Source: an uncultured Bacteroidales bacterium
GTDB taxonomy: Bacteria; Bacteroidota; Bacteroidia; Bacteroidales; JAUNSR01
DNA length: 37,147 nucleotides
Reading direction: 5' to 3'
Assembly: GCA_947074145.1 (NCBI GenBank)
Contig: CAMTOJ010000037.1
Span: 1 to 37,147 of the forward strand
In this document: in pieces, positions 22,642 through 34,595 of the stretch
How positions within the stretch are numbered: position 1 is the first letter of the stretch
How the letters are laid out: each line of letters opens with the position of its first letter
Notes under the pieces: generated by a model
Told to the model about the DNA's origin: nothing
What the model saw: only the letters and a program-made list of their open reading frames with translations
Database searches by the model: none
Made by a program: the position numbers and the translations under genes

Positions 22642-22741
22642 GTTTTCGCTGCTCCTTGCTAGTTATCAACTGATAAGACGCTAGTTATCAGTTGATAATT
22701 TGCTAGTTATCAGTTGATAACTAGCAAGGAGCAGCGAAAAC
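22642..22741. repeat. Perfect 35-bp inverted repeat with an internal third copy of its core
   Basis: Positions 22642-22676 are the exact reverse complement of 22707-22741 (the right arm ends GATAACTAGCAAGGAGCAGC and then GAAAAC). The 30-base loop has another copy of the core CTAGTTATCAGTTGATAA. The core TTATCAACTGATAA and its complement are present three times. The outer part of the arms is much richer in G+C than the surroundings. As RNA it would form a long hairpin. It lies between divergent promoters, not at a gene end, so it is not an ordinary terminator. Confidence 0.9.
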
Positions 22742-22864: not shown

Positions 22865-23701
22865 ATGGATTGTAAAAAGCAAAAAATGGCTATCGGTGTA
22901 TTTGACTCGGGTTATGGAGGTCTTACAATACTTGATAAAATCAGGCAAAATATGCCTGAATACGACTATATATATTATGGAGATAATGCTCGAGCTCCTT
23001 ATGGGAGTCGTTCCTTTGAAGTTGTGTATCAATTTACACTTCAGGCAGTAAAACGACTCTTTGATATGGGTTGCCCTCTCGTGATATTAGCATGTAATAC
23101 TGCTTCGGCAAAAGCTTTACGTTCAATACAGCAAAAAGATCTTCCACATATTGATCCCACTAAAAGGGTCCTTGGTATAATACGTCCAACTGTAGAGGTG
23201 ATTGATACCATAACAAAAAACAATCATGTGGGCATTTTCGGCACACCGGGTACTGTGGCCTCAGGCTCATATCCTCTTGAAATTGCAAAAATATCTCCCG
23301 ATATACAAGTATCTTCCGAAGCGTGTCCTATGTGGGTTCCGATTGTGGAAAACAATGAAGCCAACGGTGAGGGTGCTGACTATTTTATTAAAAAGAATAT
23401 AGATTCTCTTCTTGAAAAAGATCCGTTGATTGATACTGTGATTTTAGGGTGTACCCATTACCCATTATTATATAATAAGATAAGAAATTATCTTCCGGAT
23501 AACGTAAATATTATATCTCAGGGAGATATCGTAGCAAAGAGTCTGAAAGATTATCTTTCAAGACACCCCGAAATTGATAGCAGATTATCAAAAAACGGAA
23601 AATGTTTCTTCTACTCTACCGAATCAAAAGACAAATTTAAAGAGGTGGCGTCTGTATTTCTAAATGATGAAATAGATGCACATCAGCTATCCGTAGAATA
23701 A
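22865..23701 (+). CDS. murI: Glutamate racemase
   Basis: MurI converts L-glutamate to D-glutamate for peptidoglycan synthesis, acting in the cytoplasm without a cofactor. The 278-residue protein has GVFDSGYGGLTIL with Asp14 and Ser15, YYGDNARAPYGSRS, the first catalytic Cys77 (ILACNTASA) and the second, Cys196, in VILGCTHYPLL with His198. Length and spacing of the two Cys halves match the family. It is the only plus-strand gene between 1 and 31281 and stands alone, with a hairpin shortly after its stop. Regulation is not evident apart from the large inverted repeat in its upstream region. Confidence 0.96.
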   Translation: MDCKKQKMAIGVFDSGYGGLTILDKIRQNMPEYDYIYYGDNARAPYGSRSFEVVYQFTLQAVKRLFDMGCPLVILACNTASAKALRSIQQKDLPHIDPTKRVLGIIRPTVEVIDTITKNNHVGIFGTPGTVASGSYPLEIAKISPDIQVSSEACPMWVPIVENNEANGEGADYFIKKNIDSLLEKDPLIDTVILGCTHYPLLYNKIRNYLPDNVNIISQGDIVAKSLKDYLSRHPEIDSRLSKNGKCFFYSTESKDKFKEVASVFLNDEIDAHQLSVE

Positions 23702-23705
23702 AAAA

Positions 23706-23732
23706 GGGTATGACATCCCATTTGTCATACCC
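23706..23732 (-). terminator. Hairpin after murI with T run on the minus strand
   Basis: A 10-bp perfect stem GGGTATGACA/TGTCATACCC with a 7-base loop. The minus strand continues TTTTTT, the plus strand does not have a T tract. It would therefore stop transcripts arriving from the PoxB-like gene side, and protect murI from antisense transcription; it could also stabilise the murI 3' end. Confidence 0.6.
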
Positions 23733-23857
23733 CGTAACAGGTTTAGTAATAGTTCTTAAGCATTCAAAATATACATATTAAGATTTAGGTTAATCTATTT
23801 GTAGAAATTATATTATAACAAACTTTCCTATTTAAACCATTATTTTTTTCAATCCTT

Positions 23858-23895
23858 GATAACATATTTATAGTTATCCTATGATGAGATAGGAT
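23858..23895 (+). terminator. Overlapping hairpins, possible murI terminator
   Basis: GATAAC (23858-23863) pairs with GTTATC (23873-23878), and ATCCTAT (23876-23882) pairs with ATAGGAT (23889-23895); the two share bases, so only one can form at a time. The second is followed on plus by TGATTTTT, as in a weak terminator. It sits about 175 bases past murI. Confidence 0.35.
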
Positions 23896-24392
23896 TGATT
23901 TTTCGTGCAACCTTAATCGATTTACAATAAAGATTAAAATCATTATTCTCATTAAGAGAGAAAAGCCATCAATAACTTTATATAATTTTTATCTAACATA
24001 TCAATCGTCTTGTTTATTTAATACTTACAAAATAAACGAGATGGTTAACTTTTATAAACACATATATATTCTTAAACAGTGCAAATATAATCGTTTGATT
24101 AAAAATATTATAATTGTTAACCTTTTTTAATTACATTGCATTACTTAATATTTCAAAAACCACTACATTTGTTAACGTAAATAACACTTCAGCCTGTTAA
24201 CATTATGGAAATTGAATAAAATAAAATTCAAGTTTGATGGTGATTAACATTAAATAGAAAGAGAATTTAAATAAAAAGAAGAGGTTAATAAATATCCATT
24301 TTATAAGAGTAATGGATTGAAAATAACTAAGGATTAACGTGATAAATATAAAAAATATAGAATATTAGAGAATACCTTCAAAAACAATCATA

Positions 24393-24585
24393 TTACCTAT
24401 CAATGTACGCATTCTGGTCGATCCTTTTGATGCTCCTGCGGGAAACATCAAAATAAGATACTTACTAATTCACACCTAATCCCCCATACGGCGTGATGAT
24501 GAAGTTTCACTTTGAGAAAAATTCTCAATAAGGCAATCACCAAAACAAGGGCTGAAATAAAAATCAGCCCGACATTGATAGGTAA
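24393..24585. ncRNA. Structured non-coding RNA candidate (193 nt, closed by a 14-bp stem)
   Basis: TTACCTATCAATGT (24393-24406) pairs perfectly with ACATTGATAGGTAA (24572-24585), closing a domain with four internal hairpins. These are TTTTGATG/CATCAAAA (24425-24453, with an inner TCC/GGA and UGCG tetraloop), TTGAGAA/TTCTCAA (24512-24528) nested in GTGAT/ATCAC (24493-24540), and GGGCTGA/TCAGCCC (24549-24570). It does not encode a protein and is not upstream of any gene, so it is unlikely to be a riboswitch. Strand is unresolved: on minus a TTTTT run follows shortly after the domain, and TAATCTTC at 24601-24594 may be a -7 box. Families to compare are 6S RNA and the Bacteroidales-1 RNA; I could not match it by eye. 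Confidence 0.6.
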
Positions 24586-24687
24586 CTTGTATTGAAGATT
24601 AAATGAAAATCAGAGAATTAGAACAATTATTTCTCTTATAATATTCAATAAGCTTATTTAATTTACGATTAAAAATAAAATCTGTTT

Positions 24688-26415
24688 TTAACGTTGTCTG
24701 ATATTTGTTATTGCTTCCTCTAAAAGCTTTTCATAATCGCCATGCTCTGCAAGCTTAAAAGCATATTCAGTGAAATGACCAGCCATTTGAGCAGTGATTT
24801 GAGGTGGCATAATCAATGAATATGGATCAACCACAACATCAACCAATACAGCGCCTTCATATGCCATTGCCTCCTCTATTGCCGGAATCAATTGTGAAAC
24901 TTTATCAACTCTGATCCCTTTTATACCTATGCTTTGTGCAACTGCGGCAAAATCGGGATTTACAAGATTGGTAAATGAGGGTAATAAACCATCGCCTTTC
25001 ATCTCCATTGCCACAAAATCAAGACAGGAATTGTTGAAAACAAAGATCTTCGGATTTAATTTCTCTTGTACAACAGTTAAAAGCTCACCCATTAACATGG
25101 AAATTCCACCGTCACCACACATTGCAATAACAGGTTTATCGGGATTAGTGGTCTTTAAACCTATCGTTGTTGGTAGAGCGGCAGCCATTGTGCCATGAAG
25201 TGAAGATGTAAAGAAACGACGCTTGCCGAAAGATTTCACATATCTTGCAGTAAAAGCCCATGGAGTCCCCATATCGGCTGTAAACCATGCATCATGCGGC
25301 GCTTTGCTACATATGGCATTGGCAAGATTTTCAGGGAATATCTTATGTTCTGAATCTTCCGATTGAATTGTTAGTTTATGTAGTCTTTCTAATGCAACAT
25401 TATATTTACCAACGCACTTATCGGCAAAACTACTATCGGCTTTCTCTTTGACAAGTGCAAAAAGTGCCTCAATCGTATTACCTATATCACCTACAACTCC
25501 AAGTGTTATATTATGTCGTCGTGATAGATTTTCACCTGCAATATCAATCTGCACTATTGGTACATTATCAGGATAACCATCAGGAAAAGCAAATCCGCAA
25601 CCCAGAACAAGTAGCAAATCAGCATTATGGAGAGTATAAACTGCCGCACTATTGCCAAGCATACCATTCATTCCCACCGGGTAGGGTGAATCAGAATCGA
25701 ACAACTCCTTTCCGATTGATGACCATGCAATAGGTGCTTTTATTTTCTTTGAAAATTCTTTTACCAATCTCTCTCCTCCCCGACAACCGAAACCTGCAAA
25801 TATTGCTACTTTTTTTACCGAATTTATATAATCGGCTATAAGTTTAAGCTCCTCATGTGAAGGTGTAATAACAGGATCGGGATAAAAAGGTAGATATTTT
25901 ATCTCTTTGTCTTCAACCTGTTCTACAGTTACTTCTGATGGGAGAATCAATACCGAAACACCTTTACGTGATATTGCAGTTTGCATAGCTATCCCAAGTA
26001 TACGAGGAAGTTGATCTGCACTTCTGACATATTCACAAAACACAGAACAGCCCAGAAATAGATTACGTGTCTCTATCTCCTGTACATAGCGAGTGCCGAT
26101 CTGGGAACGATGAATTTCTGTTGCAATAGCCAGAACCGGAACTGAGTTTCTATTTGCTTCATAAAGTCCGTTCACAAGATGCAAAGATCCGGGACCGCAA
26201 GAACCGATACATGTCGCAAGTTTGCCGGTTGCTGCAGCCTCCGCTCCTGCTGCTATGGCAGCACTCTCTTCATGACGAGTATGTACAAATCGAATCTTAC
26301 TTTTGCTTATAGCATTTGTAATGAAATTGGCAGAATCTCCGGTAATCCCATAAATACGTTCGACATTTGCCTTTTCAAGAGTTTCGACAAGTTGCTTTGC
26401 AACATTATTTTTCAT
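24688..26415 (-). CDS. poxB: Thiamine-diphosphate pyruvate oxidase / pyruvate:quinone dehydrogenase (PoxB-like)
   Basis: A 575-residue flavin/ThDP enzyme with the full three-domain order: PYR domain (1-170) with Glu50 in HTRHEESAA and the GPGSLHLVNGLYEANRN segment, central FAD domain (190-320), and PP domain with MCGDGGISMLMGELLTVVQE (GDGG at 434-437) and the NN that ends the ThDP motif at 461-462. Order and length match E. coli PoxB, which oxidises pyruvate to acetate and CO2 and passes electrons to quinone at the membrane. The alternative is an H2O2-forming pyruvate oxidase, which makes acetyl phosphate. The C-terminus (residues 546-575) is amphipathic, as required for the membrane-attached form. 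It starts its own unit and ends towards the RNA candidate region. Confidence 0.88.
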   Translation of the reverse strand: MKNNVAKQLVETLEKANVERIYGITGDSANFITNAISKSKIRFVHTRHEESAAIAAGAEAAATGKLATCIGSCGPGSLHLVNGLYEANRNSVPVLAIATEIHRSQIGTRYVQEIETRNLFLGCSVFCEYVRSADQLPRILGIAMQTAISRKGVSVLILPSEVTVEQVEDKEIKYLPFYPDPVITPSHEELKLIADYINSVKKVAIFAGFGCRGGERLVKEFSKKIKAPIAWSSIGKELFDSDSPYPVGMNGMLGNSAAVYTLHNADLLLVLGCGFAFPDGYPDNVPIVQIDIAGENLSRRHNITLGVVGDIGNTIEALFALVKEKADSSFADKCVGKYNVALERLHKLTIQSEDSEHKIFPENLANAICSKAPHDAWFTADMGTPWAFTARYVKSFGKRRFFTSSLHGTMAAALPTTIGLKTTNPDKPVIAMCGDGGISMLMGELLTVVQEKLNPKIFVFNNSCLDFVAMEMKGDGLLPSFTNLVNPDFAAVAQSIGIKGIRVDKVSQLIPAIEEAMAYEGAVLVDVVVDPYSLIMPPQITAQMAGHFTEYAFKLAEHGDYEKLLEEAITNIRQR

Positions 26416-33528: not shown

Positions 33529-34437
33529 ATGAAAATAACAAATAAAGGGCTAACCATAGCTCTATTATTAGCTAGTACAACTTTGAGTATGGCACAAAAA
33601 AATAATTATGAAGTTAGATATGCGGCTAATCCTGTAGATGCTAAAAGTTATGATACAGAGAGATTACGTAAAGATTTCCTTATAGAAAATATTTTTGTTA
33701 ATAATGAAATCAATATGGTATATTCAATGTATGATAGATTTATCATAGGTGGAGCTGCTCCGGTTTCAGAGACTCTTAAACTTGAAGCTATTGATCCGTT
33801 GAAAGCTAAAAATTTCCTTGAACGCAGAGAACTTGGTATCATCAATGTTGGTGGTGAAGGTGAAGTGAAAGTTGGAAACAAAACTTACAAACTTGGAAAT
33901 CAGGAAGCTCTTTACGTTGGTAGCGGAGAACATGAAGTAGAATTCAAATCTTCGAATCCTTCTTCTCCTGCTCTTTTCTATTTCAACTCTGCCCCTGCTC
34001 ATAAGTCTTATCCTGTGAAAAAAATCACAAAGAAAGAGGCTAATATTATTAATGCAGGATCTCTTGAAGAATCGAATGCACGTACAATCAATCAGCTTAT
34101 CGTGAATAAGATTGTTCCGGGATGTCAGCTTCAGATGGGACTTACAGAACTTAAACCGGGTAGCGTTTGGAACACTATGCCTTCACATACTCACGATCGT
34201 CGTATGGAAGCTTATTTCTATTTCAACGTTCCTGAAAGTCAATCTGTATGTCACTTTATGGGTGAACCGGATGAGACTCGTCACATCTGGGTTAAAAACA
34301 ATCAGGCTGTAATCTCTCCTGAATGGTCGGTACATTGTGGAGCAGGTACATCAAACTATACTTTCATTTGGGGTATGGCAGGTGAAAATCTTGATTACAA
34401 TGATATGGACAAACATGCTCCTGACGGTCTTAAATAA
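33529..34437 (+). CDS. kduI: 5-keto-4-deoxyuronate isomerase (KduI) with signal peptide, predicted periplasmic
   Basis: A zinc-dependent cupin isomerase (302 residues; the usual length is about 278) that converts 4-deoxy-L-threo-5-hexosulose uronate to 3-deoxy-D-glycero-2,5-hexodiulosonate. The zinc ligands are His220, His222, Glu227 ([14 protein letters not shown]) and His269 (SPEWSVHCG), each exactly 24 above E. coli His196, His198, Glu203 and His245. The extra residues are an N-terminal signal peptide, [20 protein letters not shown] then MAQ, with likely cleavage at AQ; the mature protein starts near residue 23. The extension replaces nothing in the family fold. It is the third gene of the operon, 30 bases after the permease, and ends at a strong terminator. 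Family identity is very secure; periplasmic location is inferred from the signal peptide. Confidence 0.93.
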
Positions 34438-34459
34438 TTTATAAGATCTTATAAAATAT

Positions 34460-34506
34460 AAAAGAACCATGATGTTTAGATATTATCTAACATCATGGTT
34501 CTTTTT
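34460..34506 (+). terminator. Terminator of the kdu operon
   Basis: A long stem AAAGAACCATGATGTT/AACATCATGGTTCTTT, extended by AGATA/TATCT across one bulged T, followed by TTTTTG on plus. It lies 22 bases past the kduI stop. Confidence 0.9.
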
Positions 34507-34595
34507 GCTTTTAGATTAAGAATGCAACAAAACAATGATTACTAATTAACAAATAGACCATAAAACTAACTTTTTGCTATTTCGATAATATTTTT

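Follow-up and report, generated by a model that had tools for sequence, protein, structure and literature searches.

A discrete element of 193 bp, at positions 24393–24585, lies between the convergent genes murI and a poxB-like gene in the window analyzed here (37,147 nucleotides of DNA from an uncultured Bacteroidales bacterium). The element has a strong, non-chance fold and is present as a single copy in its own genome, which is estimated to be 95% complete. We consider it real but unplaced: it is either an RNA specific to this lineage or what remains of a tiny mobile element. The original prediction had described an orphan structured RNA; the element is indeed orphan, discrete, and structured beyond chance, while its RNA nature is a prediction. 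The features referred to below are as follows.

24393 to 24585, no strand assigned: the structured element as a whole, 193 bp with 38.9% GC (surrounding gap, ~20% GC)
22865 to 23701, plus strand: murI (glutamate racemase), convergent neighbor
24688 to 26415, minus strand: poxB-like (pyruvate dehydrogenase/oxidase) gene; the element starts 102 nt past its stop codon on the minus strand
24393 to 24406, no strand assigned: one arm of P1, the closing stem and terminal inverted repeat, TTACCTATCAATGT
24572 to 24585, no strand assigned: other arm of P1, ACATTGATAGGTAA
24549 to 24570, minus strand: hairpin P2, GGGCTGA-8 nt-TCAGCCC, 7 bp perfect, with TTGTTTTGG next on the minus strand
24411 to 24546, minus strand: long-range helix P3 of the minus-strand fold (24530–24546 with 24411–24426), enclosing P4 to P7
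24512 to 24528, no strand assigned: hairpin P4, TTGAGAA/TTCTCAA, 7 bp perfect
24470 to 24496, minus strand: hairpin P5, TCACGCC/GGTGTGA, 7 bp with one G-U on the minus strand
24425 to 24453, no strand assigned: hairpin P7, core TTTTGATG/CATCAAAA, 8 bp perfect
24164 to 24171, plus strand: TACATTTG, a weak feature that matches TAnnTTTG, the -7 motif of Bacteroidetes, for which chance alone predicts about one match per kb

The element differs sharply in composition from the gap that contains it. This gap covers 986 bp (23702–24687) and has approximately 20% GC outside the element, with 20.2% in the 193 bp to the left and 18.6% in the 102 bp to the right. The GC content of the element (0.389) is close to that of the neighboring genes (0.40 and 0.37). 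A maximal-scoring-segment calculation, which was blind to the fold, placed the top G+C-rich segment of the gap at 24396–24582, with edges no more than three bases inside those of the 14-bp inverted repeat. Composition, with a sharp boundary at the inverted repeat, and structure thus agree on the boundaries, which we interpret as marking one discrete element. As had been proposed from its position between convergent gene ends, the element is the leader of neither flanking gene.

The predicted architecture is that of a closed, branched domain. The perfect 14-bp closing stem that was originally reported is present, with 165 nt between its arms, and on the minus strand P1 can be extended to CAAU/AUUG with UUUUU immediately after. 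Read 5' to 3' on this strand, the order is P1, P2, and then P3, which holds P4, P5, weaker stems, and P7. Of four inner hairpins described as perfect, three are (7–8 bp), whereas P5 is near-perfect, as its G-U pair on the minus strand is an A/C mismatch on the plus strand. P1, P2, P4, and the core of P7 are strand-symmetric Watson-Crick stems.

The complete fold is not a product of chance. Folding energies were -58.6 on the plus strand (z -6.7) and -71.6 on the minus strand (z -6.8) relative to 3000 dinucleotide shuffles; on neither strand did any shuffle (0/3000) fold as stably as the element, as would be expected of a structured noncoding RNA. The interior without the closing arms had z-scores of -4.2 (plus) and -4.5 (minus), matched by 1/3000 and 2/3000 shuffles, and the folding tool's own test, with flanks included, gave -7.5 (plus) and -6.9 (minus). 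The claim that the pairing is far beyond chance holds for the whole fold but is too strong for the 14-bp repeat, which is by itself only moderately surprising in 37 kb: repeats of this length within 250 nt occurred in 3 of 60 Markov sequences of window length and in 4 of 2000 of gap length.

The window holds other sites with predicted structure. Upstream of murI, a nearly perfect 100-bp palindrome (22642–22741), with 49-nt arms that are 90% complementary, consists of three 22-bp units (CTAGTTATCAGTTGATAA...); its fold (z -14.8) is much stronger than that of the element, and it was not found in plasmids (blastn) or in the other loci examined. In a hairpin just after murI (23705–23733; GGGGTATGACA...TGTCATACCCTTTTTT), the T-run is on the minus strand, so the hairpin would stop minus-strand transcripts of the gap, not murI. 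Unusually low folding energy was also found at 34321–34520, where a short-range inverted repeat of at least 14 bp (~34460–34505) follows a gene end and is probably a terminator.

The element did not match known RNA families. No Rfam 15 family reached the gathering threshold, and at E up to 10, there were only chance-level matches to unrelated families (snoRNA-like, Plasmodium, and thermometer; E 0.6–9.5). The suggested identity with 6S or Bacteroidales-1 RNA is therefore not supported by covariance-model search, and both families were absent even from the low-threshold matches. Likewise, tmRNA, RNase P, and SRP, which had been proposed for checking, gave no gathering-threshold match, and ARAGORN found no tRNA or tmRNA.

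Searches for relatives were also negative across the collections used. Four congeners contained no homolog by blastn or by R1, a single-sequence covariance model. Among 393 genomes of the order, blastn gave only 22–41-bp matches and R1 only fragments of 13.8–15 bits, with matches of 14–15 bits spanning ~45 nt. For the class, 395 genomes were searched by blastn alone, which gave three matches of 29–45 bp, all within open coding frames. There was no homolog in the plasmid and phage collections, and viral and GTDB genome scans returned chance matches only. The model scans of many genomes combined stricter filters with a loose first look, itself described only in outline, so a strongly diverged homolog could be missed. 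Viral pattern matches were rejected because, apart from the motif used for the search and short chance matches, they had nothing in common with the element, and paired terminal repeats in six unrelated bacteria shared only the searched 10-mers. The weak blastn matches (22–46 bp) that were examined closely sit in unrelated genes, which we take by eye to encode an Rnf-like membrane protein, a threonine-dehydrogenase-like epimerase, and an ABC transporter. The murI-poxB junction is absent from the congeners examined, and no syntenic locus was found in them; in the nearest, MurI is 85% identical but has different neighbors. No similar structure was seen downstream of two poxB homologs (45%–46% identity).

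Congeners lack a close ortholog of the poxB-like gene (best, 42% identity), and a search of 386 genomes of the order gave only two strong matches (45%–46%). This distribution suggests lateral gain of the gene at this locus.

Our tentative first choice, somewhat short of an even chance, is that the poxB-like gene carries in its 3' region, most likely on the minus strand, a structured RNA that is single-copy and specific to this lineage. We infer its transcription, strand, and function, and three features lead us to rank it first: the GC island, the branched fold, and the hints as to the strand. The original prediction did not consider this minus-strand 3'-UTR position. Structured noncoding RNAs have been found by the signal of GC-rich islands in AT-rich intergenic DNA (PMC6429828). 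On the minus strand, the element would form the 3' region of the poxB-like transcript, and read-through from the gene would produce a domain closed by P1 and holding P2, P3, P4, P5, and P7. Such a domain may shield or terminate the 3' end of the mRNA, P2 being the most likely hairpin for termination; alternatively, it may be processed into a small RNA derived from the 3'-UTR. Past the poxB stop codon, the first terminator-like site is formed by P2 and its T-rich tail, and the scanned region has two such sites versus 0.2 expected. However, if P2 were a terminator, transcripts from poxB would stop before most of the element. Additionally, a functional RNA class usually has some homologs, and none were found for this element.

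Differences between the strands mildly favor the minus strand as the RNA strand. Its minimum free energy fold has 72 pairs, 7 of them G-U (10%), a usual share for real RNA. In comparison, the plus-strand fold has 0 G-U in 60 pairs, which was seen in 1% of shuffles and would be odd for an RNA. Mean G-U shares in shuffles were 8.6% (plus) and 18.4% (minus), and G-U pairs were depleted relative to shuffles on both strands. The minus strand is G/T-rich, which biases this argument, and we therefore count it as a mild hint only. In a DNA palindrome, the two strands would be equal in this respect. By z-score, both strands of the element fold about equally well, a point against the RNA reading.

Close behind the RNA reading is a MITE-type relic, also absent from the original prediction, which fits several features and which we regard as possible at well under an even chance. 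In this case, a small element like ERIC, NEMIS, or RUP in kind, with 14-bp terminal inverted repeats next to TA, would have inserted in AT-rich intergenic DNA, and the fold would be a by-product of palindromic DNA. Bacterial MITEs are described as elements of less than 200 bp that have TA at each end, carry a terminal inverted repeat, and give rise to highly paired transcripts (PMC2229807). The element has terminal inverted repeats, TA at its termini (T-TA-CCTATC...GATAGG-TA-A), and a size below 200 bp, although TA flanks are common by chance in this region and a TA duplication is indistinguishable from the palindrome itself. The sharp composition boundary at the repeat, the strand symmetry of the main stems (P1, P2, P4, and the P7 core), the rarity of G-U on both strands, and the absence from congeners are also consistent with a mobile origin. 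However, MITEs occur as multiple dispersed copies, whereas only one copy was found here in a genome estimated at 95% complete, with no paired terminal repeat elsewhere in it. Only two sites other than the two arms matched the repeat with one mismatch, and these were on different contigs; at up to two mismatches, there were 56 sites versus 49 for a control pattern. Scans for repeat pairs in viral and genome collections gave only unrelated chance pairs, and MITEs are described as A+T-rich repeats, while this element is GC-richer than its surroundings.

It is improbable that the element is a trans-acting small RNA, of one strand or the other, transcribed independently from its own promoter. The free-standing fold in a long gap and the perfect match to TAnnTTTG at 24164 (plus strand) are consistent with such an RNA, but the motif occurs at chance level and lies ~220 nt upstream of the element. 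Moreover, the minus strand has no TAnnTTTG from 24300 to 25200, no plus-strand terminator follows the element, and the plus-strand fold lacks G-U pairs entirely.

A decayed coding fragment with fortuitous pairing is disfavored as less probable still: the GC content equals that of neighboring genes, a frame on the minus strand stays open over 53 codons, and weak DNA matches elsewhere fall in coding genes, but the frames tested have no Pfam or NCBIfam match, pattern plus tblastn searches found no relative in genome or viral collections and one plasmid match (E = 8), the weak matches (22–46 bp) lie in unrelated genes at the level expected from ~800 genomes, and a fold too strong for chance would be left unexplained. 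A plus-frame peptide, DAPAGNIKIR, that resembled a threonine-dehydrogenase-like epimerase was dropped, as a per-genome E of 5e-4 is close to chance when ~395 genomes are searched, Pfam gave nothing, and the similarity ends after 10 residues.

A bolder version of the reading as a structured RNA acting from the poxB 3' region is that Bacteroidales harbor a new class of multi-branched RNA, narrow in its distribution, of which this element would be the first member known. We consider this version unlikely. Judging from the method of PMC6429828, GC-based and fold-based scans of AT-rich genomes can be expected to yield single orphan structured islands, and a claim for a new RNA class therefore cannot be made for a lone element. 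If the element is transcribed, it would be an orphan RNA as large and complex as those usually confined to conserved classes, and it would serve as a test case for the origin of lineage-specific structured RNAs. If a mobile relic, it would show such elements imitating noncoding RNA genes in GC-based and fold-based scans.

Several known systems resemble the element in part. 6S RNA and Bacteroidales-1 RNA are similar to it in length, but neither gave an Rfam match. In retron msr-msd RNA, a ~13-nt inverted repeat closes a ~170-nt region, a likeness that we treat as a lead only; here, too, Rfam gave no match, and no reverse transcriptase was recognized among the window's larger ORFs, which were read by eye. 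MITEs (ERIC, NEMIS/Correia, and RUP) share a length below 200 bp, terminal inverted repeats, TA ends, and strong pairing on both strands, whereas the element is single-copy, GC-richer, and multi-branched rather than one long stem-loop, with no donor transposon found. Noncoding RNA candidates from GC-rich intergenic regions share the GC island, the long AT-rich intergenic region, and strong predicted structure, although the named classes are backed by numerous representatives and by covariation and the element is one sequence (PMC6429828). Finally, although the element is predicted to be a large multi-branched domain, it resembles 3'-UTR structured elements and 3'-UTR-derived small RNAs in lying 102 nt past a stop codon on the minus strand and in having a terminator-like hairpin at its start.
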